Virus record (IMG/VR): IMGVR_UViG_3300047564_003030
Coordinates: 1 to 45,953 of that record
Strand: one strand, 5' to 3'
DNA: 45,953 bases
Origin: a virus
The position numbers and the translations under genes were made by a program. This document shows, piece by piece, positions 4,413 through 38,708 of the stretch; the stretch's first letter is position 1, and every line of letters starts with the position of its first letter. Below the pieces are notes generated by a model that did no database searches, was not told where the DNA came from, and saw only the letters and a list, made by a program, of their open reading frames with translations.

Positions 4413-4570
4413 AAATTGTCGCATACTTTATCTTATTACTGGCGTCGTACAGCCTATCCATTGAGTTTTCGTGGGAGTACCTGACGTGGTTTATTGTCGG
4501 GCTAATCATATTGATACCATACCGAGACCTACTGTCTCACCACCTAGGGAAATTACATGAAAGAAAATGA
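4409..4570 (+). CDS. Small two-helix membrane protein, 53 aa
   Basis: Read from a TTG at 4409 that overlaps the preceding TGA and has GGGGAGG at proper distance. Two hydrophobic stretches, roughly residues 3-17 and 27-38, are followed by a polar tail. Overlaps the sigma gene by 14 bases, so translation is probably coupled. An early inner-membrane role is inferred. Confidence 0.5.
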   Translation: MKIVAYFILLLASYSLSIEFSWEYLTWFIVGLIILIPYRDLLSHHLGKLHERK

Positions 4571-5129
4571 CATACTGAGCGACTACCTCAAGTCACTGTA
4601 CGGCATCGAGCCGTTGACAGTGGAGGAAGAGCACGAGCTAGCGGGTAAGATTGCCAAGGGTGACGAGCGTGCGCTAGAGAAGTTGATCAAGCACAACCTG
4701 CGCTTTGTGGTCTACGTCGTCCGTAAGATGACGGCGTGGAACCACGGCAAGGTGCCAGTGGAGGACATGGTCGCGATGGGTAACGAGGCACTGTTTACAG
4801 CAGGTCGCAGGTGGGTGCCTAAGAACAACGCACGCTTTGCCACATACGCCAAGACGTTTATTGAGAAGGGCGTACGGCGTGACCTAGACAACACGGCAAA
4901 CATCATACGGCTACCGATCAATATCATGGAGCAGGTAAAGAAATTGAACTACACCGAGCGCTCGCTATCCCAAGTACTGGGACGCAAACCCAAGACGAAC
5001 GAGATAGCCACGCTCATGGGCGTGACAGAGAGCAAGGTGCACCAGTTGCAGGGATACATCGCACGTGAGCCAGTCTCACTTGACCACATCAACCAAGAGA
5101 AGTTTACCGAGGAGCACTTAGATGATTGA
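4557..5129 (+). CDS. Phage sigma-70 family factor lacking region 4
   Basis: 190 aa. Residues 8-60 resemble sigma region 1.2/2.1 (SDYLKSLYG, then NLRFVVYVVRKM). Residues 66-112 match regions 2.2-2.4 (VEDMVAMGNEALFTA, RFATYAKTFIEKGVRRDLDN), the core-binding and -10-reading part. IIRLP (116-120) opens a region 3-like segment to about 165. The protein then ends in a short acidic tail, with no region 4 helix-turn-helix, so it cannot read a normal -35 alone. It lies at the end of the early block that uses TATAAT boxes, while later operons carry TTTGCATTAGTA. The likely job is to redirect host RNA polymerase to that element, perhaps with the region 4-like protein at 12792. Family assignment is firm; promoter specificity is inferred. 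Confidence 0.88.
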   Translation: MKENDILSDYLKSLYGIEPLTVEEEHELAGKIAKGDERALEKLIKHNLRFVVYVVRKMTAWNHGKVPVEDMVAMGNEALFTAGRRWVPKNNARFATYAKTFIEKGVRRDLDNTANIIRLPINIMEQVKKLNYTERSLSQVLGRKPKTNEIATLMGVTESKVHQLQGYIAREPVSLDHINQEKFTEEHLDD

Positions 5130-5469
5130 ACTAAACGAAATACAACAGAAGGCATACGCACGCTTTATCAAGGCACGCGACCGAGTCGGACTGGGCGCCG
5201 TCAAGCCAAACAAAAACTACAGTTGGGTGCCACTATCCGACTACTCGGCGTGCGTGGACGTCGCAGGCATGAACCACCCCCTATTCGTACAGAACGACGA
5301 GTGGCTCGAGTACAAGGAGGCATTCTCGGCGTGGCTAGCAGTTGAGCCTGAGTTCAGAGACAAGGAACGTATGCGCATGAGCAGGGGCGACTACGGCGCG
5401 CAGGACAGTTGGGAAGAGCGTGGCAACAAGGTCACGGACATAGTCAACAAGATCAAGGAGGAAAAATGA
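5122..5469 (+). CDS. Early hypothetical protein, 115 aa
   Basis: Overlaps the sigma gene by eight bases. Charged, helical protein with several Trp/Tyr and a basic C-terminal half. No recognised domain. Coupling suggests co-expression with the sigma factor. Confidence 0.7.
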   Translation: MIELNEIQQKAYARFIKARDRVGLGAVKPNKNYSWVPLSDYSACVDVAGMNHPLFVQNDEWLEYKEAFSAWLAVEPEFRDKERMRMSRGDYGAQDSWEERGNKVTDIVNKIKEEK

Positions 5470-5660
5470 GGGTGATACCAACGGACGTATTTGACGACGC
5501 CGGCAACCTCGAAAAGGTCGAGTTTTACGACGAGCTCGGTGGCTTTCAGTTTCAGGCTATGTGGGACCCATCCGACGAGCAAACGGCAGACAACCGCCGA
5601 GAGTTCAGGGAGTGGGCCGAGACCATGGCAAAGCGCATGGACTACGAGGTAGCTAAGTGA
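5466..5660 (+). CDS. Small acidic protein, 64 aa
   Basis: The ATG at 5466 overlaps the preceding TGA and follows AAGGAGG. Acidic, with a beta-like N-terminus and helical C-terminus. Function unknown. Confidence 0.65.
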   Translation: MRVIPTDVFDDAGNLEKVEFYDELGGFQFQAMWDPSDEQTADNRREFREWAETMAKRMDYEVAK

Positions 5661-5815
5661 GACGGGGGGACGACTACGGCGAGAAGATACGGCGTAAGTT
5701 CATCGAGTACGACCCCAAAATAGACAAGATAAGGCGCAGGGAGAACCTGCTCCTGCTAATCTTGATCCTGTACCTTGGCGGGCACGTGATTTATGCTCTA
5801 TTTTTCACATTGTGA
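5657..5815 (+). CDS. Small membrane-anchored protein, 52 aa
   Basis: GTG start overlapping the previous TGA. Residues 1-30 are strongly charged and basic. Residues 31-50 are one hydrophobic helix (LLLLILILYL onward), so it is probably a single-pass inner-membrane protein with a cytoplasmic basic head. Its last codons and stop form the left part of the palindrome at 5803-5818. Confidence 0.55.
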   Translation: MRRGDDYGEKIRRKFIEYDPKIDKIRRRENLLLLILILYLGGHVIYALFFTL

Positions 5816-5818
5816 AAT
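5803..5818. promoter_or_regulatory. Palindromic operator-like site, copy 1
   Basis: TTTCACATTGTGAAA is a perfect inverted repeat of seven bases around a central T; here the flanks are T and T. A second copy lies at 5984-6000. Two identical palindromes around a gene-poor stretch just before the primase gene suggest a dimeric DNA-binding protein site. The binding protein is unknown. Confidence 0.6.
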
Positions 5819-5909
5819 GAAACGAGCTAAGTCATTGATCTTCGACGGGCTCGCGGTACTTGCGGGGGTACTTTTACTATTTTTATATTTTTTTAAAAAA
5901 GAAAAATAA
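5817..5909 (+). CDS. Possible 30-aa membrane mini-protein
   Basis: ATG 5817 directly follows the stop at 5815. Three basic residues precede a hydrophobic helix (residues 10-25) and KKEK ends it. There is no clear ribosome site beyond coupling. The 3' end is the AT tract, so the open frame may be accidental. Confidence 0.35.
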   Translation: MKRAKSLIFDGLAVLAGVLLLFLYFFKKEK

Positions 5910-5910
5910 A
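5873..5910. other. AT-rich tract, possible unwinding element
   Basis: Almost pure A/T run on both sides of a TTTTTTT-AAAAAA switch. It lies between the two palindromes and before the tandem GC-rich repeats. This is the composition expected of a DNA unwinding element, though part may encode the end of the 5817 mini-protein. Confidence 0.35.
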
Positions 5911-5931
5911 GATAGAGGGTAAACTGGAATT

Positions 5932-5958
5932 AACCCCCGCAACCCCCGCATCCCCGTC
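5932..5958. repeat. Three tandem 9-bp units (AACCCCCGC)
   Basis: AACCCCCGC occurs twice in direct tandem (5932-5940, 5941-5949), followed by a degenerate third unit ATCCCCGTC. Short iterated units next to an AT tract and upstream of a primase-helicase gene look like origin iterons. Three units is few, so this is suggestive only. Confidence 0.4.
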
Positions 5959-5983
5959 AAACATCAAGGACTTACAGCAACTC

Positions 5984-6000
5984 ATTTCACATTGTGAAAT
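5984..6000. promoter_or_regulatory. Palindromic operator-like site, copy 2
   Basis: ATTTCACATTGTGAAAT is a perfect 17-bp palindrome with a one-base centre. It lies 15 bases upstream of the phage promoter element at 6016, so a bound protein could control the primase-helicase operon or mark an origin. Confidence 0.6.
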
Positions 6001-6015
6001 ATCAGCACCCAAAAA

Positions 6016-6027
6016 TTTGCATTAGTA
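6016..6027 (+). promoter_or_regulatory. Phage promoter element P1 (TTTGCATTAGTA)
   Basis: First of nine copies of the element. It stands 19 bases before the primase-helicase ATG, with AAAGGAAA between. No host-like -10 box lies at standard spacing downstream. Opens the DNA replication block. Confidence 0.8.
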
Positions 6028-6046
6028 AGTGTGAAGAAAGGAAACT

Positions 6047-8359
6047 ATGACAGATAAACCAATTTGTTTACCCGTGCAATTCGCCACGATACCACTGGAA
6101 TTGAAACGAATCCCTAGGTGGGTACTGTGGCGCCTTGTCGAGGTAGGCGACGAGGGCAACAAGCGGTGGTCTAAACTGCCAACGCAGGTAAGTGGACAAC
6201 CTGCCTCGTCAACCAACCCGACGACGTGGACAGACTTCCCGTCAGTCCAACACGCCTACGAGGAAGACCCCGAGAAGTTTGCCGGTATCGGCTTTGTATT
6301 CACCTCGGAAGACAACCTAATCGGCGTGGACTTAGACGACTGCTATGACTACATCGCAGAGCGTTTCACAAATGCTGCACTGCAACATATATCCGACGAG
6401 CTACTTGGATACCACGAGGTCTCACCATCGGGCACCGGCATCAAGATATTCACGCGCGCTGATTTAGCACACGCCCACGTCGACCACAGCCAAGGCCTAG
6501 AGATCTACCCACAGGGCAGGTTCTTCACAGTGACGGGGCACTACCTAGGTGGCACGATACCAACCGAGGCGCAGGATCTCTCGGCGTTCATACCCGAGCG
6601 TGCACTGCACGTGACCGGCGACGCATTCGCGGACTACGTGCCACCGGTCGAGGGCTACGACCTGCACCGAGTCGAGATGGAGCTACTATCCAAGCTCGAC
6701 CCTGACTGCGGGTACACAGACTGGATGGGCGTGGGATTCGCGCTCTTCCACCAGTTTGGTGGGGACGTCGAGGCCTGCGAGCTGTGGGATCGTTGGAGCT
6801 CGCAATCCGGCAAGTACGCATCAACCGGCATGAATAGCTGTGAGAGTAAGTGGCGCACGTTCAAGAGTGGTGGCGCGACTCTACGGAGCATCATCTTCAA
6901 GGTAAATCAGAAAGAGAGGGCGGATGCGCTCGCTCGGGGCGAGATAGTACTCGACTCGGGCGCGATGAATCACGCACGCACCTTTCTCGACGCGCTCTAC
7001 TCCAGCGAGGAGGGCTACCGGCTAGTGCACTACGCGGAAGACTTTTTCATACACGCCGGCACGCACTACGAGATCATCGAGGAGGCAACGATACGCTCGA
7101 AGTTATACGCGTTCCTTGATAAGTGTAAGAAACCGGCCAAGGGCGGTGCCTTGGCGCCGTTTAACCCATCGCCTGCCAGTGTGTCGGCCTCTATGGACGC
7201 GATTAAGTCGATCGTGCACCTGCCTAATCACGCAAACACCAAGCCACCGATTTGGTTTGAAGAGTATCAGGCAAATAAGCCCGACGCGTCGAAGTTGATC
7301 AGCGTCAAGAATGGCCTCTTTCACCTAGAGGATAAGATCTTACTGCCACACTCGCTTGGGTTTTTTACACAGCACTCGCTACCATTTAAGTACGACCAAG
7401 GCGCGACCTGCCCACAGTGGGACGCGTTCTTACAGTCGATATGGGAAGACGATCAGGAGTCGATCGACGCACTGCAGGAGATCTTCGGCTACATCCTGTC
7501 GGGAGACACGAGACAGCAGAAGTTTTTTAACGTAATTGGTCCGCGACGTAGCGGTAAGGGCACGATCAACAAGGTGCTCGTATCACTATTCGGACAGCAC
7601 AACACTGTCGCGCCACAATTGGAGGAGCTCTGTGATACATTTGGCTTACAACCATGGCTTGGAAAACCCCTTGCCTCATTTACTGACGCTCGTGCACCTG
7701 AGCGTAATCGTAGCGCTGTCGTTAGCCAGTTGTTGCGTATTGTGGGTGGTGATACTGTCACCGTTAATCGCAAAAATAAAGAGGCATGGTCGGGCTATCT
7801 ACCAACGCGTATCATCGTATACTCGAACGAGGCGTTGCAATTAACAGAGAACAGTAACGCGCTCACCGGTCGTATGTTGGTGCTACGCATGACCAAGTCA
7901 TTCTATGACAACGAGGACACCGACCTGTTTAATAAGCTATCCGGCGAGTTGGCCGGTATCTTTAACTGGGCGATGGCCGGACTTGATCGCAGGCTTGCAC
8001 GTGGTGGTCACTTCGTACAACCACAGTCAGGGCGTCAGTTGTTGCTGTTGATGGAGCAGTTGGGCAACCCACTGAACTCATTCGTGGAGGACACGTTTGT
8101 GTTTGACCCAGTGTCGCAGGTTAAGAAGGACGACGTGTTCCTATGTTGGAAGAGGTGGGCGCTTAAACGTAGCCTACCACCTGGCTCGGAGATGTCATTC
8201 AAGCGCAGGTTCTTGGCCGCGACACAGGAGAAACGCATCGAGGCGGGCGAGAGCCGGTCAGAAGGTAGCCGTACCCCGATCTACTTGGGGCTACGATTTA
8301 ACACATCGGCCGGCGAGTACTTAAAAACAGTTGAGACATTTGAAACGGAAGGGTATTGA
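6047..8359 (+). CDS. Primase-polymerase / superfamily 3 helicase
   Basis: 770 aa. The N-terminal part is an archaeo-eukaryotic primase-like module: GVDLDDC (about 93-99) gives the metal-binding acidic residues, SPSGTGIKIF (126-135) the second motif, and EIYPQGRFFTVTGH the third. A PriCT-2-like segment follows at about 205-275 (DWMGVGFAL to SKWRTFK). The C-terminal half is a D5/SF3-type helicase with Walker A GPRRSGKGT near 498-506, a following acidic strand (LASFTDARAPERNR) and an arginine-containing motif (NALTGRMLVL). It should synthesise primers and unwind DNA at the replication fork. It sits behind promoter P1 and the palindrome/iteron region, which supports that region as an origin. Confidence 0.88.
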   Translation: MTDKPICLPVQFATIPLELKRIPRWVLWRLVEVGDEGNKRWSKLPTQVSGQPASSTNPTTWTDFPSVQHAYEEDPEKFAGIGFVFTSEDNLIGVDLDDCYDYIAERFTNAALQHISDELLGYHEVSPSGTGIKIFTRADLAHAHVDHSQGLEIYPQGRFFTVTGHYLGGTIPTEAQDLSAFIPERALHVTGDAFADYVPPVEGYDLHRVEMELLSKLDPDCGYTDWMGVGFALFHQFGGDVEACELWDRWSSQSGKYASTGMNSCESKWRTFKSGGATLRSIIFKVNQKERADALARGEIVLDSGAMNHARTFLDALYSSEEGYRLVHYAEDFFIHAGTHYEIIEEATIRSKLYAFLDKCKKPAKGGALAPFNPSPASVSASMDAIKSIVHLPNHANTKPPIWFEEYQANKPDASKLISVKNGLFHLEDKILLPHSLGFFTQHSLPFKYDQGATCPQWDAFLQSIWEDDQESIDALQEIFGYILSGDTRQQKFFNVIGPRRSGKGTINKVLVSLFGQHNTVAPQLEELCDTFGLQPWLGKPLASFTDARAPERNRSAVVSQLLRIVGGDTVTVNRKNKEAWSGYLPTRIIVYSNEALQLTENSNALTGRMLVLRMTKSFYDNEDTDLFNKLSGELAGIFNWAMAGLDRRLARGGHFVQPQSGRQLLLLMEQLGNPLNSFVEDTFVFDPVSQVKKDDVFLCWKRWALKRSLPPGSEMSFKRRFLAATQEKRIEAGESRSEGSRTPIYLGLRFNTSAGEYLKTVETFETEGY

Positions 8360-8505
8360 TGGACAACAAAGATGAGTTGATGTTTTTTGCAGGGCTCGCA
8401 TTGATGGGCCTAGTTGCGCGCGGGGAGGCACCAAGCTCCGCGTCTCAGCAGGCGTGGCAGTACGCTGAGTTTATGATGGCACACAAGCCCGATGCGGAAG
8501 TTTAA
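8359..8505 (+). CDS. Small conserved-type phage protein, 48 aa
   Basis: Overlaps the primase stop by one base (TGATG). A hydrophobic helix (MFFAGLALMGLVA) is followed by a polar segment and a second helix (AWQYAEFMMAHK). Proteins with this hydrophobic-then-amphipathic layout are frequent in phage replication blocks; their role is unknown to me. Confidence 0.6.
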   Translation: MDNKDELMFFAGLALMGLVARGEAPSSASQQAWQYAEFMMAHKPDAEV

Positions 8506-8740
8506 CTTTAGGAGGACCACCCTGCGCACTGGCTTTACTGAAATCTTTGGCGGGGTGGGTAACCGACGCATTGTGTTTATTAACAAAACCGATAAGCCAA
8601 GCCATTACAAGCGCACCAAGATGCAGATGTACCGCAGGGCCTCGCAGGGGTGGCGCAATCAAACTTACGCTCGCCTGTGTGCACTAAAGATATACGTAAG
8701 ATTTGGCAAACGTAAACCATCGAGGAGGTTTGGGTTATGA
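8492..8740 (+). CDS. Small very basic protein, 82 aa
   Basis: Overlaps the preceding gene by 14 bases. About a quarter of residues are Arg/Lys, spread over the whole length, suggesting nucleic acid binding. No known fold recognised. Coupled by ATGA to the next gene. Confidence 0.55.
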   Translation: MRKFNFRRTTLRTGFTEIFGGVGNRRIVFINKTDKPSHYKRTKMQMYRRASQGWRNQTYARLCALKIYVRFGKRKPSRRFGL

Positions 8741-9069
8741 ACACACCGGACAGGTGGGTAATAGTTGAGGTAATAGCTGGTGACACGCACCTCTACCGCG
8801 TGTTTGGTTGTTGGTATGGTGGCTACGCTGGATCAGACTCGTGGCAGATGAATAGTGGTATTGTGGGCGTAGATGTAGAAAAGCAGTACTACGACTTTCA
8901 TGGCGCCTCGGGGTCTGTGTACCGGTGCTACAAACATAATTACGGCACACACATGTACGGCACATCGGTGCTTAATAATTTGATCGCCAAGGCAAAGGAG
9001 CAGGGCACCACGATCAACATCATGCCGGAAGAAACAAACTGGAAGGAGTTAGTATGTACCACACAGTGA
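8737..9069 (+). CDS. Hypothetical protein, 110 aa
   Basis: ATGA overlap, GAGGAGG upstream. Beta-rich and unusually full of Gly, Tyr and Trp in the middle (FGCWYGGYAGSDSW). Resembles small phage proteins of unknown function. Confidence 0.65.
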   Translation: MNTPDRWVIVEVIAGDTHLYRVFGCWYGGYAGSDSWQMNSGIVGVDVEKQYYDFHGASGSVYRCYKHNYGTHMYGTSVLNNLIAKAKEQGTTINIMPEETNWKELVCTTQ

Positions 9070-9230
9070 AAGAGTACGAAGACGCAGTAAACCGTAAACC
9101 AATGACCGACGAAGAGATCCGCGTAATGATTATCAACATGAATAAGACCAACCAAATGTGGAGCATGCGCGACTTTGTCAGAACAGTTGAAGAACATCAT
9201 GGGATAAAAAATGAAACGCAAAATGATTGA
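9054..9230 (+). CDS. Small hypothetical protein, 58 aa
   Basis: AAGGAG lies just upstream of ATG 9054 inside the preceding gene. Contains MTDEEIR followed about 20 residues later by FVRTVEEHHGIK. The neighbour at 9443 has the same two elements (LTDQEID, FARAIERRHGIK), so the two share a small helical module. Confidence 0.6.
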   Translation: MYHTVKEYEDAVNRKPMTDEEIRVMIINMNKTNQMWSMRDFVRTVEEHHGIKNETQND

Positions 9231-9450
9231 CCCGCCAAGCGGCTGGAAGTATGGATTTCCAAAAGAGATACCCGAGCACGTCGACAACACTGTGCAGTGG
9301 CTAATTGAGAACGGCTACCCCGAGTCGGAAGTTAAGCGACTGGGCGAAAACTTTTATGTACGAGGCTGGTGGGAGGAAAAACACGAGTACGAGATATGCA
9401 GTTTAGAAAAGGCCGAAGAGTTTGCAAAGAAGAGGAAACTGAATGAATAA
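9211..9450 (+). CDS. Hypothetical protein, 79 aa
   Basis: Overlaps the 9054 gene by 20 bases. Charged, with PPSGWKYGFP near the N-terminus and a helical C-terminus (LEKAEEFAKKRK). Function unknown. Confidence 0.65.
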   Translation: MKRKMIDPPSGWKYGFPKEIPEHVDNTVQWLIENGYPESEVKRLGENFYVRGWWEEKHEYEICSLEKAEEFAKKRKLNE

Positions 9451-9691
9451 ACCAGTAAAGACATACACCGGGGGCAAGCCAAATTATGTAGCAGAGGCGC
9501 CGTACCAACCCGGCTATGAGGACGCCGTAGTCACGGAGCCAAGACCATTTTTATCCGGAATCTACAAGTCAAAACCCCTTACAGATCAAGAGATTGACGA
9601 TATTTCGGACGGGGTTTCTCATTACATTGATACATACGCAGGCAGACGTGAGTTTGCCCGCGCGATAGAGCGGAGGCACGGAATTAAATGA
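9443..9691 (+). CDS. Hypothetical protein, 82 aa
   Basis: Overlaps the previous gene by eight bases. The N-terminal half is Pro/Tyr-rich and disordered-looking. The C-terminal half carries LTDQEID and FARAIERRHGIK, a helical module shared with the 9054 product. Possibly a small adaptor; no known function. Confidence 0.65.
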   Translation: MNKPVKTYTGGKPNYVAEAPYQPGYEDAVVTEPRPFLSGIYKSKPLTDQEIDDISDGVSHYIDTYAGRREFARAIERRHGIK

Positions 9692-9879
9692 AACGTAAAA
9701 AAGAAGAGTTTAGATTTACCATCAAGACACTCAGCGAGAACGAGGACGGCTCGGCTAATTGTGAGGTCGACATGGACGACTACACCAAGGGCAAGCTGAT
9801 CGAGATCGGCGTCATAGCGATTTTAAAAGAGCACATCGCACAGGAGAAAATGAAACATGCAAAAGAAGCCGCCGTTTAA
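9688..9879 (+). CDS. Small hypothetical protein, 63 aa
   Basis: ATGA overlap. A basic start is followed by strands and a long charged C-terminal helix. Overlaps the next gene by 23 bases. No family recognised. Confidence 0.6.
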   Translation: MKRKKEEFRFTIKTLSENEDGSANCEVDMDDYTKGKLIEIGVIAILKEHIAQEKMKHAKEAAV

Positions 9880-10090
9880 GGTAGTGTTTGAAGAGGGCGT
9901 GTTTGATGATCTCGCAGAGGACGCAGATCTAACACAAGAAGAGCTCGACGCGTTTATCGCGGGCATCTTTGAGTTGGCCGAAAGCGGAGAGATCTTTGAC
10001 TACTCCACGCCAATCGAAGAGTTATCCGAAGAGGAGCAGGCGGAGATTATCAGCATGCTTGAATACAAACAAAAGAAGACGAGGCACTAA
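9857..10090 (+). CDS. Small strongly acidic protein, 77 aa
   Basis: ATG 9857 overlaps the preceding gene by 23 bases. Residues 10-65 are dominated by Asp and Glu in helical pattern, then a basic tail KQKKTRH. Candidate DNA mimic or adaptor by composition only. Confidence 0.6.
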   Translation: MQKKPPFKVVFEEGVFDDLAEDADLTQEELDAFIAGIFELAESGEIFDYSTPIEELSEEEQAEIISMLEYKQKKTRH

Positions 10091-10341
10091 TGAACACAAG
10101 ACGCGAAGAATTATCAGAGCAGTACCCAGACCTATTGGTGATGGACCCCGACTACCTCGACTCCGCCATCATGGGCGTGGTGACACGCATTGGATTAGAG
10201 GCGGTTTGTTACAGCACCGACAAGGTAATACGTTTATTGATGGAGCACGACGGCATGACAGAGGAAGAGGCCATCGAGTACATGGAGTTCAACATGAAGG
10301 GGGCCTGGGTGGGTGAGACCACGCCAGTGTTTTTAGAATGA
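10090..10341 (+). CDS. Conserved-type phage protein, 83 aa
   Basis: TAATG coupled. Ends with YMEFNMKGAWVGETTPVFLE, a C-terminal signature I know from many phage hypothetical proteins (EY.EFN..GA.VGE.TP.F). Function unknown. Ends in an ATGA overlap with the metallopeptidase-like gene. Confidence 0.7.
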   Translation: MNTRREELSEQYPDLLVMDPDYLDSAIMGVVTRIGLEAVCYSTDKVIRLLMEHDGMTEEEAIEYMEFNMKGAWVGETTPVFLE

Positions 10342-10859
10342 AAAAATACGACTACTACAAACTAGACGTTGGCTTTTATCCCGATGTGATGAAGGTATGC
10401 TTTTCAAATACTGTATTCCAGCAGATCCTAAAAGACCACAAGGTTACGATGAAGGCCGAGGCCTTGGACATTGGCGTAGCAGAGACGCACCTAATCGGCG
10501 ACGGACAGGACGCGTTGGTGATCCTAGTGTTTAACTTAGAGGCACTCACCGACGGCATCGACGAGGTAGTCGGCGCTATCGCGCACGAGGTCAGCCACGC
10601 AATTGATCATTTGGCCGAGTACATCGGCGAAGATGATGGCATCAAGGGGGAGACGCGCGCCTATCTTAGCGAGTCACTGGTACGACAATTGTTTAAGATA
10701 ACGATGGCGGAGAAAAATAATAATGCTAGAAAAGCAGATCGAAAAATATCTCGTAAAAAGGGTAACACAAAGCAAGGGGCTAACGTTCAAGTGGATATCC
10801 ACAGTGGCGGGGGTGCCGGATCGGCTAGTGTTTCTGAACAATCAGGTCCACTTGGTTGA
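10338..10859 (+). CDS. HEXXH zinc peptidase-like protein with overlapping tail
   Basis: 173 aa. AIAHEVSHAID (81-90) is a gluzincin-type HEXXH motif, and GETRAYLSES about 20 residues later may give the third ligand. Substrate unknown. The fold appears complete by about residue 128. From there to residue 173 the frame runs through the first 137 bases of the VRR-NUC gene and gives a Lys/Gly/Ser-rich tail. Either the tail is real overprinted sequence or a stop was lost by frameshift around the AAAAATAATAATG run (10712-10725). Confidence 0.6.
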   Translation: MKKYDYYKLDVGFYPDVMKVCFSNTVFQQILKDHKVTMKAEALDIGVAETHLIGDGQDALVILVFNLEALTDGIDEVVGAIAHEVSHAIDHLAEYIGEDDGIKGETRAYLSESLVRQLFKITMAEKNNNARKADRKISRKKGNTKQGANVQVDIHSGGGAGSASVSEQSGPLG

Positions 10860-10995
10860 GCTAAAGACAGCAGACGGAAAGCTATCGGCCCGGCAGATCT
10901 TAGTATTTGACCAGCTCGGCGAGGCCGGCTTTCCGGTGTACATACTACGATCATACGAAGACATTGAGGAGTTCATCCGTGACGCGACCACCTAA
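10723..10995 (+). CDS. VRR-NUC family nuclease
   Basis: 90 aa, normal length for stand-alone phage VRR-NUC proteins. It shows the PD-(D/E)XK core: VPDRLV (D33), VELK (E46, K48) and a Gln in ARQ at 58. These enzymes cut branched or flap DNA and usually accompany phage SNF2 helicases, as here. Starts inside the metallopeptidase-like frame. The following HNH gene starts with GTG at 10979 inside it. Confidence 0.85.
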   Translation: MLEKQIEKYLVKRVTQSKGLTFKWISTVAGVPDRLVFLNNQVHLVELKTADGKLSARQILVFDQLGEAGFPVYILRSYEDIEEFIRDATT

Positions 10996-11932
10996 ACCAA
11001 CCGACTACAAACACGGCGATATCCACCATCCGACCGGTAGAATTTTTATTGGCTATTTTTGGCAAAGTAATTATTGGTACCCAAAACTATACCACAGCAA
11101 AACGAAAGAAGACGCCCACATTGAGATAATGTATAAAAACGCGCTTCACCGGGCCCGTCGAGATAATCTACCGTTTGATATTGACATTGAGTACCTTAAG
11201 TCAATTAAGACAGACAGGTGCCCCATATTTGATATGGAGCTATCATGGGGCAAAATTGGAGAAGGTCACGCAAATACAGAAAATGCGCCGTCGTTGGATA
11301 AAATAAAGTCTGAGTATGGCTACGTCAAGGGTAACGTCTGTATTATTAGTAACCTAGCAAACAAAATAAAACAAAACGTAAGCTACAAAGAACTATACAA
11401 AATTGCGGATTGGTTATACGAAAAATATAAGGAAGTGGAAAAAAATGTTAGACCGGAACAGCTTACACCAATACCAAAAAAATCTAATCGAGCAGGCCAA
11501 GACAATTCCCAGCTTGGGTTTGTTTTTACCGCCGGGCCTTGGGAAAACAGCGACGACGCTAACGATTATCGCGGAGCAACTCAAGGGGAAAACTCTTATC
11601 GTAGCGCCAAAGAGGGTAGCGGAGACAGTATGGGACACGGAGGCAAAGAAATGGGAACACCTGCAACACCTAAAGATAGCAAAGATACTCGGGACACCGG
11701 CTCAACGGTTGACAGCGTTGAAGAGTTCTTCGAACGTGTACGTAGTCAATCTCGAGAACTTGATCTGGTTGTTGGATCAACCAAAGATGCAATTCAACAA
11801 TCTGATAATCGACGAGTCGAGTCGCTTCAAAGATCCTTCGACGAAAAGATTCAAGAGCTTGAAAAAACACTTAAAGAGCTTCGAGAGGCGCATTATCCTG
11901 ACAGGCACCCCTACCCCCCAAGGGATAGGTGA
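10979..11932 (+). CDS. HNH-type endonuclease with 162-codon overlap into the helicase gene
   Basis: GTG 10979 is chosen because GAGGAG lies just upstream. Residues 1-155 are an HNH-like protein: RCPIFDMEL, then ENAPSLDKI and YGYVKGNVCIISNLANKIK, the SLDRI/GYV.GNV pattern of phage HNH enzymes. This part is AT-rich compared with the flanks, as expected of a transferred homing-type nuclease. From 11445 the frame continues for 488 bases inside the SNF2 helicase gene in another frame, giving a low-complexity charged extension ending in a coiled coil. The natural C-terminus is probably near residue 155. Confidence 0.65.
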   Translation: MTRPPKPTDYKHGDIHHPTGRIFIGYFWQSNYWYPKLYHSKTKEDAHIEIMYKNALHRARRDNLPFDIDIEYLKSIKTDRCPIFDMELSWGKIGEGHANTENAPSLDKIKSEYGYVKGNVCIISNLANKIKQNVSYKELYKIADWLYEKYKEVEKNVRPEQLTPIPKKSNRAGQDNSQLGFVFTAGPWENSDDANDYRGATQGENSYRSAKEGSGDSMGHGGKEMGTPATPKDSKDTRDTGSTVDSVEEFFERVRSQSRELDLVVGSTKDAIQQSDNRRVESLQRSFDEKIQELEKTLKELREAHYPDRHPYPPRDR

Positions 11933-12785
11933 TCTCTGGTCCCAGGTAGGTATATTGGACCTAGGGAGCCGTTTAGAGACGTCCCTGACCCGGTTCAGAG
12001 ATAAGTACATGGAGCCGGACCAATTTAACCGCCATACACGCGTGGTATATAGCTGGAGGATAAAGCAGGGCATGGACAAGGTTATCCAGGACAAGATCGC
12101 AGATATTTGTTTTAGTCTAAAGGCCGAGGATTATTTGACACTACCAAAATTAACCGAACTGTATCACAAGGTAGACATAACCACGGCAGAGCGTAAACAA
12201 TACGACACACTTAAAAAGGACATGGTCGCCAACATTGGATCGGAGACAATCACCGCGCCAACGGCCGCGGCCCTAGCCGGTAAGCTATTGCAGTTCACAT
12301 CCGGCGCAGTCTACGCAGAGGATGGATCGTGGCAGGAAGTCCACCGCGCCAAGCTGGAGTACCTCGAGTCGATTATGGAGGAATCCTCGGCGCCCACGCT
12401 GGTGTTCTATCACTTCAAGCACTCACTGCAACGGATCCAGGATCAATTCCCCCACGCAGTGGTACTAGACGATAACAACATCCAGGCATGGCGCGATGGT
12501 AAGATCCGTATGCTATTAGCCCACCCGCAGTCTGGTGGCATTGGCTTGAACTTACAGTGCAACGTAGGTGAGACGGCGCAGACCGTCTGGTATGACCTAC
12601 CCTGGAGCAGTGAGAATTATATCCAGGCAAACGCACGGATCTACCGCCAAGGCCAAGAGAAACCCGTCATTATCCACCACCTAGCCGTGTCTAACAGCAT
12701 CGACGAGCAGGTAATTAAGGTATTGGACGGAAAAATAAATTTGCAGGATGCCCTGCTGAACGCCCTAAATTTTGCATTAGTATAG
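11445..12785 (+). CDS. SNF2-family DNA helicase/translocase
   Basis: 446 aa starting at ATG 11445, preferred to an in-frame TTG at 11403. Motif I is PPGLGKTATTL (GLGKT at 31-35), motif II IIDESS (121-126) in place of DEXH, motif III LTGTP (152-156), and the C-terminal lobe has GGIGLNLQ and ARIYRQGQ. Compact phage SNF2 proteins like this accompany VRR-NUC and family A polymerase genes and probably remodel forks or replication intermediates. Its last codons are built from phage promoter P2, so the gene end and the promoter are the same DNA. Confidence 0.88.
   Translation: MLDRNSLHQYQKNLIEQAKTIPSLGLFLPPGLGKTATTLTIIAEQLKGKTLIVAPKRVAETVWDTEAKKWEHLQHLKIAKILGTPAQRLTALKSSSNVYVVNLENLIWLLDQPKMQFNNLIIDESSRFKDPSTKRFKSLKKHLKSFERRIILTGTPTPQGIGDLWSQVGILDLGSRLETSLTRFRDKYMEPDQFNRHTRVVYSWRIKQGMDKVIQDKIADICFSLKAEDYLTLPKLTELYHKVDITTAERKQYDTLKKDMVANIGSETITAPTAAALAGKLLQFTSGAVYAEDGSWQEVHRAKLEYLESIMEESSAPTLVFYHFKHSLQRIQDQFPHAVVLDDNNIQAWRDGKIRMLLAHPQSGGIGLNLQCNVGETAQTVWYDLPWSSENYIQANARIYRQGQEKPVIIHHLAVSNSIDEQVIKVLDGKINLQDALLNALNFALV
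12771..12782 (+). promoter_or_regulatory. Phage promoter element P2, inside the helicase gene end
   Basis: TTTGCATTAGTA encodes the last residues of the SNF2 helicase and ends three bases before the end of its stop codon. The next ATG, of the sigma region 4-like gene, is only nine bases downstream, so a transcript begun here would have almost no leader. Confidence 0.75.
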
Positions 12786-12791
12786 TTACGT

Positions 12792-13103
12792 ATGAAGAAA
12801 ATCACAATATACAAAGTTAGCGCAACAGCCCCGCGACTCAGCGATGAGGACCCGGACCCAATCGAGCAAGACGAGAGCGAGGGCATATCCTCGAACATTA
12901 TCGAGGGGTGGCTACCCTGGGACCCGGAAGATATCTCAGACATACGTCGACTGATATCAGATAAGTTGCCACCCAAGCAACAGTTTATTATCGAGTCATT
13001 TTTAGACGGGTTAACGTACACAGACGTTTGTGTGACAGAGAAATACTGGCGCTATCATTTTGCTAAGGGCATCGAACTTATCAGGAAGGAATTAAAGCTA
13101 TGA
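12792..13103 (+). CDS. Sigma region 4-like helix-turn-helix protein
   Basis: 103 aa. Residues 1-45 are acidic and Pro-rich. Residues 50-102 resemble sigma-70 region 4: ISDKLPPKQQFIIESFLDG, then LTYTDV as the turn, then a helix VTEKYWRYHFAKGIELIRK in the recognition position. The phage sigma protein at 4557 lacks exactly this region, so the two could act as a split factor, or this one could be a co-activator bound to the polymerase flap. It lies directly behind promoter P2, suggesting auto-stimulation. It could instead be an unrelated small HTH regulator. Family call moderate; partnership inferred. Confidence 0.55.
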   Translation: MKKITIYKVSATAPRLSDEDPDPIEQDESEGISSNIIEGWLPWDPEDISDIRRLISDKLPPKQQFIIESFLDGLTYTDVCVTEKYWRYHFAKGIELIRKELKL

Positions 13104-14569: not shown

Positions 14570-14581
14570 TTTGCATTAGTA
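14570..14581 (+). promoter_or_regulatory. Phage promoter element P3
   Basis: Exact TTTGCATTAGTA, starting three bases after the stop of the 14355 gene. The 73-base leader to the next ATG holds a TCGGG/CCCGA hairpin (14602-14616) and a short TTATTTT. It would transcribe the structured-RNA and small-terminase segment. Confidence 0.8.
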
Positions 14582-14654
14582 GATATAGGGCTAGTAAGCT
14601 GTCGGGAGACACCCGAACGCCTTATTTTACATACACAAACACAGGAGATTTACA

Positions 14655-14912
14655 ATGAACCCATTTGAATTACGCTATGACTTACTCAAGACCTCCAAGG
14701 AGTTCTTAACCGAGCAATACAACGCCCAGTTAAAGGCGTGGGAAGTGGCAGACGAGGCAGGTAAAAAACTGCTCGAGAACGCGCCCAAGTTCCCCACAAT
14801 GCACGAGATCATTGACAACGCCGTGGAGATGAACAAGTTCATCAGCACCACGATCGAGGCTCAATTGGTTGACGGCGTTAAGCGCTTTAACCGCATCACG
14901 GCAGTATTTTAG
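14655..14912 (+). CDS. Conserved-type small phage protein, 85 aa
   Basis: ACAGGAG lies nine bases before ATG. NPFELRYDLLK, a long helix with Trp, FPTMHEIIDNA and MNKFI match a small protein family I know from T4-like and cyanophage genomes, where its role is unknown. First gene under promoter P3, and followed by a long inverted repeat. Confidence 0.65.
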   Translation: MNPFELRYDLLKTSKEFLTEQYNAQLKAWEVADEAGKKLLENAPKFPTMHEIIDNAVEMNKFISTTIEAQLVDGVKRFNRITAVF

Positions 14913-16187: not shown

Positions 16188-16199
16188 TTTGCATTAGTA
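16188..16199 (+). promoter_or_regulatory. Phage promoter element P4
   Basis: Exact TTTGCATTAGTA directly after the HNH gene and 31 bases before the DUF2800 start. It restores transcription of the recombination genes downstream of the mobile HNH insertion. Confidence 0.8.
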
Positions 16200-17888: not shown

Positions 17889-17900
17889 TTTGCATTAGTA
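17889..17900 (+). promoter_or_regulatory. Phage promoter element P5
   Basis: Exact TTTGCATTAGTA, 67 bases before the DUF2815 start. The leader contains a hairpin at 17920-17946. Confidence 0.8.
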
Positions 17901-17919
17901 TATTTAGCAGAGGGTAGAC

Positions 17920-17946
17920 GAACTGGCCCCTATTGAAGTCCAGTTC
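17920..17946 (+). other. Leader hairpin of the DUF2815 transcript
   Basis: GAACTGG (17920-17926) pairs with CCAGTTC (17940-17946) around a 13-base loop, just downstream of P5 and 21 bases before the start codon. No T-run. Likely a 5' stabilising or translational control hairpin. Confidence 0.5.
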
Positions 17947-17967
17947 TACAGTTATAAAGGAATCAAC

Positions 17968-18489
17968 ATGGCACAAGCCACTACTAAAGTAAAAGTTGTA
18001 ACCGGTAAAGTTCGTTTCTCATATGCGAACGTATTCCAACCCGCCTCCTCAATCGAGGGTGGCACACCGAAGTACTCCGTATCAATCATCATCCCCAAGT
18101 CTGACAAGGACACCATCGCACGTCTCCAGAAAGCATTTGAAGAGACCAAGGCCGCGGCGTCTGCATACTTCGGTGGCGCGGTACCCAAGAACTTAAAGGG
18201 TGGCCTGCGTGATGGCGACGCGGAGAAGGACGACCCAGCGTACGCTAACAGCTACTTTATCAACGCAAACTCGGCACAAAAGCCTGGCGTTGTTGACGCC
18301 GACTTGAACCCGATCATTGACACAAGTGAGTTCTATAGCGGGTGTTATGGTCGCGCATCAATCACGTTCTACCCATACAATGCTCAGGGTTCTAAGGGCA
18401 TCGCATGTGGTTTGAACAATGTTCAAAAACTAGAAGACGGCGAGAAGTTAGGCGGCAGTACTACCGCAGCAGCAGACTTTGCCGTATAA
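17968..18489 (+). CDS. DUF2815 ssDNA-binding protein
   Basis: 173 aa. VRFSYANVFQP, PKYSVSIIIPKSDKDT, LRDGD and the FYSGCYGRASITFYPY core are characteristic of DUF2815, an OB-fold single-strand DNA-binding family used in phage replication and recombination. Good AAAGGAA site. It has its own promoter (P5), as expected of a protein needed in bulk, and is followed eight bases later by rubrerythrin. Confidence 0.85.
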   Translation: MAQATTKVKVVTGKVRFSYANVFQPASSIEGGTPKYSVSIIIPKSDKDTIARLQKAFEETKAAASAYFGGAVPKNLKGGLRDGDAEKDDPAYANSYFINANSAQKPGVVDADLNPIIDTSEFYSGCYGRASITFYPYNAQGSKGIACGLNNVQKLEDGEKLGGSTTAAADFAV

Positions 18490-18496
18490 GGAAAAT

Positions 18497-18934
18497 ATGC
18501 CACAACAAGTAAAAGGAACAAGGACTGAACAGTCCTTAAAAGAAGCATTTGCCGGCGAATCCAAAGCTAATCGTCGTTACCTCTACTTTGCAAACCTTGC
18601 AGACGTAGCAGGCGCCAACGATGTAGCCTCGGTATTTCGCTCAACGGCGGAAGGTGAGACGGGCCACGCCCACGGTCATATGGAGTATTTGATTGCCGGC
18701 GGTAGTGGTGATCCTGAGACTGGCTTGCCCGCCAAAACCGTTGAAGAGGCATTGAAGTCGGCTATCGCTGGTGAGACACACGAGTACAGCGATATGTATC
18801 CCGGCATGGCCAAGGTCGCACGCGACGAAGGCTTTGAAGAGATCGCCGACTGGTTTGAGACGTTGGCAAAGGCTGAACGCAGCCACGCCAATAAGTTTAC
18901 TAAGACGCTTAACGCATACTTAGAAAACGCTTAA
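18497..18934 (+). CDS. Rubrerythrin-family diiron protein
   Basis: 145 aa from ATG 18497 (AAGGAA upstream). A complete four-helix ferritin-like domain carries the diiron ligands: E21 (AGES), E54/H57 (EGETGH), E93 (AGETHEY) and E127/H130 (AERSH). There is no C-terminal rubredoxin domain, so it is the short erythrin form. Bacterial relatives reduce peroxide or handle iron in the cytoplasm. It is co-transcribed with the ssDNA-binding protein and precedes a B12-dependent ribonucleotide reductase, so it may protect radical or iron chemistry during replication. Family call is firm; the role is inferred. Confidence 0.88.
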
Positions 18935-20973: not shown

Positions 20974-20999
20974 GGGGAGCTTCGGCTCCCCTCTTTTTT
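20974..20999 (+). terminator. Intrinsic terminator fused to promoter P6
   Basis: GGGGAGC-TTCG-GCTCCCC is a perfect 7-bp stem with a UUCG tetraloop followed by TCTTTTTT. The last T residues are also the first bases of promoter element P6. Confidence 0.85.
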
Positions 21000-21008
21000 G
21001 CATTAGTA
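20997..21008 (+). promoter_or_regulatory. Phage promoter element P6
   Basis: Exact TTTGCATTAGTA overlapping the T-run of the terminator. The leader has a small CCGA/TCGG hairpin (21015-21026). Drives the DNA polymerase gene. Confidence 0.8.
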
Positions 21009-21043: not shown

Positions 21044-22966
21044 ATGATATATTCGATTGACTTTGAGACACGCAGTAAGGCAGACCTGCCAGAGGTAGGC
21101 CTTGACAACTACGCCAACCATGAAACCACAGAAGTCCTGTGTATTGCGTTTGGCACCCAACCTGACAATGTAATTGTCGCTCTACCGCTTTCTTGGAAAG
21201 CGCTTCAACCACTAAATACCCTTTTAGAGCATGTACGCAACGGCGGCAAAATAGCAGCCTGGAACGCCATGTTTGAGTACGCGATCTGGAACTGTGTATG
21301 CGTACCTAAGTACGGGTGGCCACGACTAAAGCTCGAGCAGTGTATTGACACCATGGCCGTAGCCGCGGCCAATAACATACCACAGGGCTTGGATGAGGCC
21401 GGCGCCTTTATGGACGCCCAGTACCAGAAAGACCCCATTGGCAAGAGGCTTATTCAAAAGCTCTGTAAACCCAATAGCAAGGGTGGCTTTAATGACGACC
21501 CCGAGCTATTAAAGCAGCTCTTTGATTACTGTGCCCAAGACGTACGCACGGAGATGGCCCTAGGAGCCGTTTTAAGGCCCCTAGAAGACGTCGAACAGGC
21601 AGTCTGGACCCTCACCCAGCGGATCAATACAAGAGGCGTTCCTGTGGACCCTAGGGAGCTCCAAAATGCCGTCCTGGCAGTCCAAAGGGCGCAGGCAGCC
21701 ATAGACCGGGAATGTCTCGAGTTGACCGGCTGTAAGCCAAGCGAGCGTCAAAAGCTCTTAGATTGGCTCAACGCCCAGGGCGCCGGGTTGGACGACCTGA
21801 CCGCCGAGACCGTCTCAAAAATGCTGCAGTGCAGCATTCACACGCGCGTAAAAAAAGCGCTGGAGCTAAGACAGGATGGTAGCCAAACTAGCGTGGCTAA
21901 GTACGCTAAAATGTTGGAGGTACAAAGAGATGGCAGGATCAGAAATACGCTTGTCTATCACGGGGCTAGCACTGGGCGTTGGGCTTCTCGTGGTGGACTT
22001 AACCTACAGAATATCGCTCGGCCTAATCTATCCGATGAAGAAATTGAGAGATGTATACCTCGAGTTTTTGATCAGGCGACTGGTAGCATGGGAGAGCTAT
22101 CCTCTCTTGTTCGAAGTGGAATCAAGGCGCCGGATGGAAAAACCTTTGTGGACGTTGATTTCTCGTCTATTGAGAACCGAGTAGGTGTCTGGCTAGCCGG
22201 ACAAAAAGATAAGATCGAGATGTTTAGAAAGGGATTAGATGAGTACAAGACATTCGCCTCCACCTCCCTATACAGAGTCCCGTATGATGCGGTTACGAAG
22301 GATCAAAGACAGGTTGCTAAGTCGGCAGTTTTGGGCGCGATGTTTGGTCAGGGCGCTAAGGGCCTAGTCAAATACGCGGATGGGATGGGGGTTAAGCTCA
22401 CGGAGGCGCAGGCAAAGAATGCGGTAGATAACTACCGTGGCTCGTACGTAATGGTCAAGGAGCTATGGGGGGCGTGCGAGAGCGCGGCGATCCAGGCCGT
22501 GGAGAACCCAGGGTCGCCGTTCGCAGCGGGCGCTAAGATTATATTGAAGTGCGCGAAGGGTGCGCTATGGATGCGCCTACCGAGTGGCAGGCTTATCTGT
22601 TGGCAGAGGCCACAGCTCGAGTTGCTCACCACACCCTGGGGGAGTGAAAAGCTCGGCGTTACGGTCCACAGCCAGAACACCTACAGCCGGCAATGGACTA
22701 GGAACGCCATCATCGGCAGTAGTATCTTCCAGTCCGCGGTACAGGGCACCGCTCGGGACTTTCTTGCCGTGGCTATGCTTAACCTTGATAAAGCCGGTTA
22801 CGAAGTGATTAACAGCGTGCATGATGAAGTCTTACTCCTCGTTGAAGAACAAAACGGGGAGTCCGCAATGGCCGACGTAATCAAGATGATGACTACGCCA
22901 CCGTCGTGGGCTCCCGATTTTCCTCTCGCAGCGGAGGGCTGGCACGGCAAGCGCTACCGTAAGTAA
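21044..22966 (+). CDS. Family A DNA polymerase with 3'-5' exonuclease domain
   Basis: 640 aa from ATG 21044 (AAGGAG upstream); an earlier in-frame TTG at 20972 would lie in the terminator and is rejected. The exonuclease part has SIDFETRS, AAWNAMFE and YCAQDVRTE. Polymerase motif A is VDVDFSSIENR, motif B RQVAKSAVLGAMFGQG, motif C NSVHDEVLL. In motif B the position of E. coli Pol I Phe762 is Leu and that of Tyr766 is Phe. It is the replicative polymerase of this phage. The stop codon abuts the stop of the convergent minus-strand gene. Confidence 0.92.
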   Translation: MIYSIDFETRSKADLPEVGLDNYANHETTEVLCIAFGTQPDNVIVALPLSWKALQPLNTLLEHVRNGGKIAAWNAMFEYAIWNCVCVPKYGWPRLKLEQCIDTMAVAAANNIPQGLDEAGAFMDAQYQKDPIGKRLIQKLCKPNSKGGFNDDPELLKQLFDYCAQDVRTEMALGAVLRPLEDVEQAVWTLTQRINTRGVPVDPRELQNAVLAVQRAQAAIDRECLELTGCKPSERQKLLDWLNAQGAGLDDLTAETVSKMLQCSIHTRVKKALELRQDGSQTSVAKYAKMLEVQRDGRIRNTLVYHGASTGRWASRGGLNLQNIARPNLSDEEIERCIPRVFDQATGSMGELSSLVRSGIKAPDGKTFVDVDFSSIENRVGVWLAGQKDKIEMFRKGLDEYKTFASTSLYRVPYDAVTKDQRQVAKSAVLGAMFGQGAKGLVKYADGMGVKLTEAQAKNAVDNYRGSYVMVKELWGACESAAIQAVENPGSPFAAGAKIILKCAKGALWMRLPSGRLICWQRPQLELLTTPWGSEKLGVTVHSQNTYSRQWTRNAIIGSSIFQSAVQGTARDFLAVAMLNLDKAGYEVINSVHDEVLLLVEEQNGESAMADVIKMMTTPPSWAPDFPLAAEGWHGKRYRK

Positions 22967-31639: not shown

Positions 31640-31651
31640 TACTAATGCAAG
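31640..31651 (-). promoter_or_regulatory. Phage promoter element P7
   Basis: Minus-strand CTTGCATTAGTA, identical to the other copies except the first base, 31 bases before the ATG at 31608. It would transcribe the ejection operon down to 22967. Confidence 0.8.
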
Positions 31652-37192: not shown

Positions 37193-38083
37193 TTAGCAGG
37201 CCTTTCCGCCGCGTTTTTTACCAGTCATTTTACGGTACTTTGCCTCGTAGCTGGATGGGTCTTTTTCAGCAATTCTTTTTTCTTGCTCGGCGGCTGCCTT
37301 GTTTTGCTCTGGTGTACCCATTACGTTTTCGTATAGTTTTTTACCGACGGCTTTAATATTGTCTACAATACCGCCGTCAGCATACTTTTTTACTTTACCG
37401 CCTTTTTTCATTTCTGAATATTTTTTTATTGTTTTTTTACTAACAGGCACATTTAAAGGATCTATTTTATTTACTTCTTCTTTTATCATTTCTTTTTGCT
37501 GGCTGGTGGTCGGTTTTCCTAACGTGCTTTCTCTTGCCACGTCATTTGATACCGATTTGCCAGCGTTATACTTTTTTACTTCACCACCTTTTTTAGCGTA
37601 GCCCATCTTGTTACGGACGTTGGTTGGGAGTTTGGCCAGGCCAGGGTTCTCTTCTGCGTCGACAGATTTTAACGAGCCACCCTCAGCACACTTTTTTACA
37701 TTGCCGCCCTTTTTGAAGGGGGTTGGTTCTGCCATCATAGCGGCGCTTGGGGCTGCTGCCTTTTTGGTTTTGGTGAGCTTAATCTTCTGGATGTCTTTAA
37801 TATCTGCGGCATCCTTCTTCATCTTGATAGAACCGCCGTCCTTATAGCGACCAACGCATCCGCCCTCTTTCTTCATGCGGCCGCCTTTTTTGAGCTTGGA
37901 CAGGTTAGTCTTCTCGCCCTCGTGTGATTGCTTGTCGTGCATGGCAAACGCCTTCTTGACGACCTTCTTGTCTTGTGCAATGTCTTCGCTCATCTCTGAC
38001 TTTTCAGAGTGGCGTGACTTATACTTAACAGCGCCGCCTTCTTTGAAGCACTGCATCTTGGGTGATGTTTTAAAGCCGTCCAT
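37193..38083 (-). CDS. Lys/Gly-rich KKGG-repeat protein
   Basis: 296 aa, about one quarter Lys, with at least six KKGG or EGG/DGG blocks ([61 protein letters not shown]). Very basic and probably unfolded between blocks. Could coat packaged DNA or decorate the capsid. First gene under promoter P8, with GAAGGAA before ATG. Similar GG blocks recur in the ejection-cluster proteins. Confidence 0.6.
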
Positions 38084-38114: not shown

Positions 38115-38126
38115 TACTAATGCAAA
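38115..38126 (-). promoter_or_regulatory. Phage promoter element P8
   Basis: Exact TTTGCATTAGTA on the minus strand, 31 bases before ATG 38083. It begins at the tail of the endolysin terminator, the same terminator-promoter fusion seen at 20974-21008. Drives the connector and fibre operon to 31675. Confidence 0.8.
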
Positions 38127-38146
38127 ATAAGGGGCCTTTACGCCCC
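38124..38146 (-). terminator. Terminator of the endolysin gene, fused to P8
   Basis: On the minus strand GGGGC-GTAAAG-GCCCC forms a 5-bp G/C stem (38146-38131) followed by TTATTTT. The endolysin stop codon lies within the loop, and the T-run runs into P8. Confidence 0.65.
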
Positions 38147-38671
38147 GGCCAAGAACAGCGAGCGCTCTATTTGTCTACGCTTTTTAAGGACCGGCGGGGT
38201 GCTCCAGTTAAGGAACGCGTCGCCTGCCTTGTGCACGTTGCCGTCGTTAAAGTGCTTAACTACCTCAGAGCGGGCCATGTTGTCTGGGCCAATGTTATGG
38301 CATAGGCTCATCAAGGCGTCGATCTGGTGCCTCTTAGGAGTGCTGTTTAAAGCCGATTCTAGGGCCGTAGAGCACTTTTCTAGGTCTCGGTGTAGGATAC
38401 CTATCACCTCGGCCTCAGAAAGCTCCCTATGGAGCAAATGGGCGTCCTTTTGGCGTATTAGGTGACCAATGCCGGTCGTCCACTTACCGCCGGCATCTTG
38501 GTAGGCGCGGTAGCGCTTTCCCTCAAAGTGTTCAATTAATTCAACGGTTGAGTCAGCAACCCACTGAAATGGGGTGCTGGCCATGGCCCATTTAGCTAGG
38601 GGGTCGTGAAAACACACGCCCCAGACAAGCGCAATCGCGCAGGCGTACACCGCCAGGTGATGTCGTAACAT
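38138..38671 (-). CDS. SAR-type GH24 endolysin (lysozyme)
   Basis: 177 aa. Residues 6-20 form a weak hydrophobic segment with Ala, Gly and Cys, consistent with a signal-anchor-release helix. The catalytic triad has T4-lysozyme spacing: E50 (HFEG), D59 and T65 (KWTTGIGH). It would cut the glycan strands of peptidoglycan once released from the membrane. GAGGAG precedes the ATG and the gene has its own promoter P9. A second lysis enzyme (M15) is directly upstream. Confidence 0.85.
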   Translation of the reverse strand: MLRHHLAVYACAIALVWGVCFHDPLAKWAMASTPFQWVADSTVELIEHFEGKRYRAYQDAGGKWTTGIGHLIRQKDAHLLHRELSEAEVIGILHRDLEKCSTALESALNSTPKRHQIDALMSLCHNIGPDNMARSEVVKHFNDGNVHKAGDAFLNWSTPPVLKKRRQIERSLFLAGA

Positions 38672-38696: not shown

Positions 38697-38708
38697 TACT
38701 AATGCAAA
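38697..38708 (-). promoter_or_regulatory. Phage promoter element P9
   Basis: Exact TTTGCATTAGTA on the minus strand, 25 bases before the endolysin ATG and just after the M15 stop. Gives the endolysin independent expression. Confidence 0.8.

Follow-up and report, generated by a model that had tools for sequence, protein, structure and literature searches.

Does a phage sigma factor that ends before region 4 find its missing part in a second protein, encoded about 8 kb away? To our knowledge, few sigma factors are split, and in the best-known example from phages, T4 gp55/gp33, the second protein is not related to sigma region 4. The locus that raises the question lies in a virus record from IMG/VR, 45,953 bases long, the whole of which was analysed and is called the window here. 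Replication and nucleotide-metabolism genes occupy the plus strand up to position 22,966, and beyond it structural and lysis genes occupy the minus strand. A sequence-only reading had proposed a two-part sigma factor, formed by the products of genes at 4557 and 12792. The features concerned are as follows.

4557-5129, plus strand: sigma-70-like protein with regions 1.2, 2 and 3 only, 190 aa (Pfam, SigA profile match)
5122-5469, plus strand: 115-aa protein with no family name, overlapping the sigma stop codon and located beside sigma in the full relatives compared
12792-13103, plus strand: sigma region 4-like protein, 103 aa (AF2 models, PDB fold matches, Pfam r4_2 in relatives)
12924-13094, plus strand: region-4 helix-turn-helix (HTH) of the 12792 product, aa 45-101 (AF2 model)

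Pfam analysis of the 4557 product detected region 1.2 at aa 5-37 (24.6 bits, cut-off 22), region 2 at aa 43-108 (24.6 bits, cut-off 24) and region 3 at aa 125-177 (39.6 bits, cut-off 25.3), while the sole region 4 match was trivial (E 0.15) and fell inside region 3. When a profile of 14 sigma relatives was searched against the PDB, the best matches were bacterial SigA proteins (E 9e-29). The SigA alignment of the 4557 product reaches the motif 'EPVSLD' of region 3.2, after which 14 residues are left, and the chain ends inside that region. Among 95 related ORFs from IMG/VR, all are 184-190 aa long apart from one fragment, and none contains region 4. Pfam and the SigA alignment thus agree with the earlier claim that the protein has regions 2 and 3 and stops before region 4; as judged from its sequence, it keeps the parts for core binding and for reading of the -10 region (1.2-3). 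The neighbouring 115-aa protein matched no family in a Pfam search and may possibly be an accessory factor.

The 12792 product has an acidic, mostly disordered N-terminus, followed by a domain that AlphaFold models with pLDDT of 89-96 over aa 51-100, and its C-terminus is the last HTH helix. Foldseek searches of the model against the PDB returned top matches that are nearly all sigma region 4 domains, with individually modest E values of 0.2-1, and the viral structure library also gave sigma proteins. VIA placed the model on 3vfz_A with Z 8.6 and rmsd 2.0 over 57 residues, the Z being middling for a helical domain. The Pfam Sigma70_r4_2 match of the protein itself is below threshold (11.7 bits, cut-off 25.7, E 0.2); 10 of 45 diverse relatives match this family at E up to 0.1 (best 4.7e-5), and in a smaller alignment of eight members, four hit a phage sigma PHROG, the best at 9e-5. 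In an hhalign comparison, the protein scored 24.8 with a set of 36 bacterial and phage sigma sequences covering region 3.2-4, and none of 200 column shuffles exceeded 19.7. When PDB sequences were searched with a profile of the region-4 protein, no sigma came up; only folds and Pfam gave sigma matches. The sequence-only reading had staked itself on a region 4-like HTH behind an acidic N-terminus; composition agrees with the latter, and the predicted fold, the Pfam matches of relatives and hhalign all show similarity to region 4, so that the C-terminal domain models as sigma region 4.

The same fold is found in LuxR/NarL-type HTHs, which stand lower in the fold lists. The 12792 product could then be an independent HTH regulator, a late activator or repressor of LuxR or ArpU/RinA type with a region 4 fold by chance, leaving the 4557 product alone to act on polymerase. 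Response-regulator HTHs are indeed among the fold matches, and small, mostly unannotated proteins follow the VRR-NUC/helicase module in cultured phages, but sigma region 4 domains dominate the top matches in both structure libraries, and we consider this explanation improbable. Descent of the 12792 protein from a known late regulator was unsupported, as the post-helicase gene in two Gram-positive phages gave no sigma region 4 match. The N-terminal motif PRLSDED.D..E.DD was also considered as a displaced sigma finger (region 3.2) and rejected, with a profile score of 10.1 against shuffled controls of up to 14.0.

The hhalign alignment further shows a shortened HTH turn, TYTDVC----VTEKYWRYHF versus TLEEVGKQFDVTRERIRQIE, leaving the HTH about 4 residues short. 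The sigma70 residues that read the -35 element, R584, E585 and Q589, align with E83, K84 and Y88, so the residues for TTGACA are replaced; together with the shortened HTH, this suggests that the 12792 product may not bind DNA as sigma region 4 does. The most conserved part of the protein is the helix EK.WRYH, with E83 K84. W86 R87. H89 invariant in 45 sequences, a conservation that is somewhat overstated because the relatives were found partly with this motif.

A candidate promoter for the pair is the nearly invariant 12-mer TTTGCATTAGTA, present in eight exact copies in the window, versus 0.007 expected under a third-order Markov model, and in one further copy with one mismatch.

6016-6027, plus strand: element before the primase/helicase gene (6047), exact; same place in most relatives
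12771-12782, plus strand: element P2, in the last codons of the helicase gene (11403-12785) and 9 bases before the ATG of the region-4 gene, exact
14570-14581, plus strand: element before the gene at 14655, exact
16188-16199, plus strand: element before the exonuclease gene (16231), exact; same place in most relatives
17889-17900, plus strand: element before the DUF2815 RNA and the SSB gene (17968), exact
20997-21008, plus strand: element before DNA polymerase A, directly after a terminator-like hairpin, exact
31640-31651, minus strand: element with one mismatch in the late region (sequence match)
38115-38126, minus strand: element before the late gene 37193-38083, exact; also at the corresponding place in the relative G005
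38697-38708, minus strand: element before the endolysin-like gene 38138-38671 (PHROG endolysin), exact; also at the corresponding place in G005

The P2 copy confirms that the 12792 gene sits nine bases behind the element, as had been claimed. All nine copies run with the genes, on the plus strand in the plus-strand half and on the minus strand in the minus-strand half, and elements occur at orthologous places before the primase and exonuclease genes in many lineages. Natural variants are TTTGCATTAGTA, TTTGCATTATTA, TTTGCATTAATA and TTTGCGTATTAGTA.

Alignment of 49 sites filtered for similarity revealed no -35 signal, with at most 0.17 bit at 4 to 18 bases upstream of the element. Outside the core, only an A/T-rich flank and, weakly, a TA at positions 17-18 carry information. 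A weak conservation about 19-24 bases upstream stems from one orthologous site, the 14570 element, with GGGCG; many orthologues of this site have GGGCG some 20 bases ahead of the element, and no other upstream conservation of this kind was seen. A hairpin-like leader follows that element at 14570-14655. The element of the exonuclease gene often abuts a terminator hairpin, and the hairpin sequences are unrelated between lineages, which indicates that the upstream DNA is unconstrained. If T17 and A18 are taken as -1 and +1, T-15 and G-14 fall in the extended -10 register and ATTAGT occupies -12 to -7. The best register of TTTGCATTAGTA would accordingly read TTTGC-ATTAGT as an extended -10, with the start predicted about 7 bases further on.

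A long, nearly invariant 12-mer could also be an operator for a DNA-binding regulator, or a promoter for a single-subunit phage RNA polymerase. We regard either as very improbable: the element is not palindromic and its orientation is fixed, the weak TA lies at the expected initiator place, the form of the element changes with sigma region 3.0 (see below), and no RNA polymerase gene, single-subunit or other, was recognised among the large ORFs of the window that were tested. Nor was a second conserved operator seen beside the elements at the 49 filtered sites, which also speaks against the 12792 product as an independent HTH regulator. The primase element is flanked, upstream of 6016, by palindromes of the type TTTCACATTGTGAAA or, in other lineages, by one around ACTTTTAGTTATATAACTAAAAG; in some clades (L021, L022 and others) such palindromes also flank a TGTGGTATAAT promoter of the sigma gene, and they are likely an early operator.

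The form of the element was compared with sigma region 3.0 across the relatives. Sigmas with RIPIKVREE are accompanied by TTTGCGTATTAGTA before the primase gene, and also at P2 and before the exonuclease gene where these sites are present in the contig. Sigmas of the RLPxNxxE type are accompanied without exception, whenever the primase element is present, by TTTGCATTA(G/T)T, the form without the GT insert (TTTGCATTAGT or TTTGCATTATT). The changed residues align with H455-E458 of sigma70, the residues that touch the extended -10. Since this is largely one clade split, and about thirty other sigma positions also separate the two clades, phylogeny is a confounder, and the joint change of element form and region 3.0 residues is suggestive only. 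Contig L125/L159, record IMGVR_UViG_3300031759_000166, combines a sigma and primase element of the RLPxNxxE type (A type, natural sequence RLPINIME) with the P2, exonuclease element and region-4 protein of the RIPIKVREE clade (B type); it is either a natural recombinant or a chimeric assembly, and this mixture is a point against the two-part sigma.

A scan of IMG/VR viral contigs yielded 103 sigma relatives and 448 region-4 relatives, of which 80 each were kept. Gene order is constant in the relatives: sigma, the 115-aa protein and primase, then VRR-NUC, helicase and the region-4 protein, then exonuclease, SSB, RNR and polymerase. We examined 120 loci in which the contig covers the end of the helicase gene and continues for at least 400 bases, many of them near-identical and not all independent. 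The region-4 gene follows within 3 kb of the helicase end in 116 of these loci, and the other four contigs end within 1.5 kb. Contigs with only one partner are, as far as checked, incomplete. The two parts therefore appear as separate genes conserved together in a large family of uncultured, mostly metagenomic phages, and the constant company of the 12792 protein with a sigma lacking exactly region 4 is a further point against an unrelated HTH regulator. The proposal of a two-part sigma gains from the absence of region 4 in every sigma relative, from the region-4 fold and from this co-occurrence, but not from specific co-divergence: in a distance-tree (mirror-tree) test, sigma and region-4 protein co-diverged no more than other genes do (partial r 0.08, p 0.15).

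Several variations on this arrangement were observed. In about a third of the loci (L061, L065, L086 and others), roughly 1.4 kb of inserted sequence separates P2 from the region-4 gene, and a second, divergent region-4 gene lies just upstream of sigma in three contigs (L027:7610-7948, L098:1061-1366 and L189:9036-9269). In cultured phages, window positions 1-25000 had no nucleotide match and the 12792 product no protein match. In the genome collection, the region-4 protein has a single relative, L195:7669-7971, whose contig belongs to a MAG with the label uncultured beta proteobacterium; this hints only weakly at a host, and we name none.

The sequence-only reading had the sigma gene transcribed early from host promoters, with the second part amplifying itself through P2. 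Consistent with the first claim, the 400 bp ahead of the sigma gene are free of the element in all 69 distinct contexts, and TGTGGTATAAT-like host promoters lie upstream of it in some clades. For the second, the P2 element is found at the helicase end in 95 of the 120 loci, in the variant used elsewhere in the given clade, but is absent in clades around L020, L021, L022, L147, L164 and L173, and some clades also lack the primase element. Self-amplification would therefore be common, not universal. From the spacing, the region-4 message in many lineages is predicted to start at the A of AUG or within about 4 bases of it, and would thus be leaderless or nearly so.

We consider it fairly likely that an early subunit with sigma regions 1.2-3 redirects the host polymerase to an extended -10-like promoter, and that a separate, feedback-controlled region 4-like subunit joins it. 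The two would sit on one holoenzyme, and the pair probably steers host RNA polymerase to a single-element promoter before replication, structural and lysis genes. The 4557 product would be made early from host promoters and displace the host sigma on host RNA polymerase, then open promoters at TTTGCATTAGTA with basal activity of its own, which the logic of P2 requires unless read-through supplies the 12792 product. The first transcripts, by read-through into the 12792 gene and by transcription from P2, would provide the region 4-like subunit, which may occupy the vacant beta-flap site, exclude host region 4 and stabilise upstream DNA without reading a -35 sequence. The outcome would be strong transcription of replication, structural and lysis genes, with -35-dependent host promoters losing polymerase. 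P2 would act as positive feedback on the 12792 gene, often through a (nearly) leaderless message. If the region-4 protein were strictly needed, P2 could not start by itself without read-through or basal activity, so an enhancer or stabiliser is more likely than an absolute requirement.

An alternative, which we find unlikely but take seriously, is that the 4557 product alone is the complete specificity factor and the 12792 product stands outside promoter recognition, as a gp33-like coactivator or shut-off protein on the beta flap, or as a block of host region 4 like that imposed by AsiA, which blocks host sigma region 4. No -35 element is there to be read, the -35-reading residues are replaced and the HTH is shortened, and the 12792 product is usually made after sigma, all of which suits such a role. 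T4 gp33 itself binds the flap at late promoters that lack a -35 element and represses basal activity (PMC2988020, PMC7892883). Against it, the near-invariant recognition helix (E83 K84. W86 R87. H89) suggests a specific contact. The fold matches are to sigma region 4 and not to gp33, but absence from such lists is no proof; the C-terminus, which in gp33 binds the clamp, is here the last HTH helix. This alternative differs from the two-subunit explanation only in whether the 12792 product is a working sigma subunit. We hold more tentatively to the fullest form of the two-subunit explanation, which we rate as somewhat less likely than not: that sigma70 has been split between regions 3.2 and 4 into differently timed halves, that the half homologous to region 4 is feedback-controlled and often leaderless, and that its HTH, once a -35 reader, has been remodelled to contact polymerase, sigma or non-specific DNA where an extended -10 promoter lacks a -35 element.

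Among known systems, SigO-RsoA (YvrI-YvrHa) of Bacillus subtilis is a true split sigma, whose sigma2 and sigma4 domains come as two proteins working jointly (PMC8103513). The phage pair resembles it in having region-2/3 and region-4 parts in separate, co-occurring genes. SigO-RsoA is bacterial, encoded in one operon (yvrI-yvrHa), and joins a sigma4 protein to a sigma2 protein, whereas the pair described here is from a phage, is divided into regions 1.2-3 and 4, has about 8 kb between its differently controlled genes, and lacks a -35 element. No other true region split was named in the open-licence literature searched, in which a published description of the phage family could be missed. The term 'split sigma' has also been applied to T4 gp55/gp33 (PMC2988020), although gp33 and sigma4 are structurally unrelated (PMC7892883). 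With gp55 and gp33 (plus gp45) the present pair shares a region-2 sigma without region 4, promoters without a -35 element and a second small protein, here proposed, on the beta flap; it differs in that gp33 works through the sliding clamp, while the second protein here models as sigma4 and the sigma keeps regions 1.2 and 3. No sliding clamp gene was recognised among the window proteins scanned.

SPO1 gp34 and gp33 are likewise two small proteins, annotated as sigma factor and sigma accessory. They were rejected as a homologous pair: gp34 has region 2 and a weak region-4 match of its own, and gp33, which belongs to Pfam Phage_Gene33, shows no similarity to the 12792 product (hhalign score 10.7, one aligned column). 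In phiEco32, whose sigma is gp36, one motif, tAATGTATAtA, is common to middle and late promoters and lies 6-8 nt ahead of the start (PMC4281155); this is also a phage sigma with one short promoter motif, but a single protein with another motif. The sigma of the related phage SU10 is annotated as an ECF sigma, and a survey of jumbo phages describes phage sigma factors that are 'minimal', having no more than an HTH (PMC7824862).

If the two-subunit explanation is right in its fullest form, this would be the first phage split sigma with a true region-4 homologue as its second half. The phage family, with its co-varying element variants and apparent recombinant, makes the role of region 4 without a -35 element testable, as well as how sigma and promoters change together. 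The promoter motif also allows annotation of transcription units in these uncultured phages. An Rfam DUF2815 RNA (75 bits; 17911-17970, plus strand) lies between the 17889 element and the Enc34-type SSB gene, directly after the element, so that an element-driven SSB message would begin with this RNA. In the same replication cluster, a rubrerythrin/ferritin-like protein (18479-18934, plus strand; Pfam E 5e-25) adjoins the class II ribonucleotide reductase.
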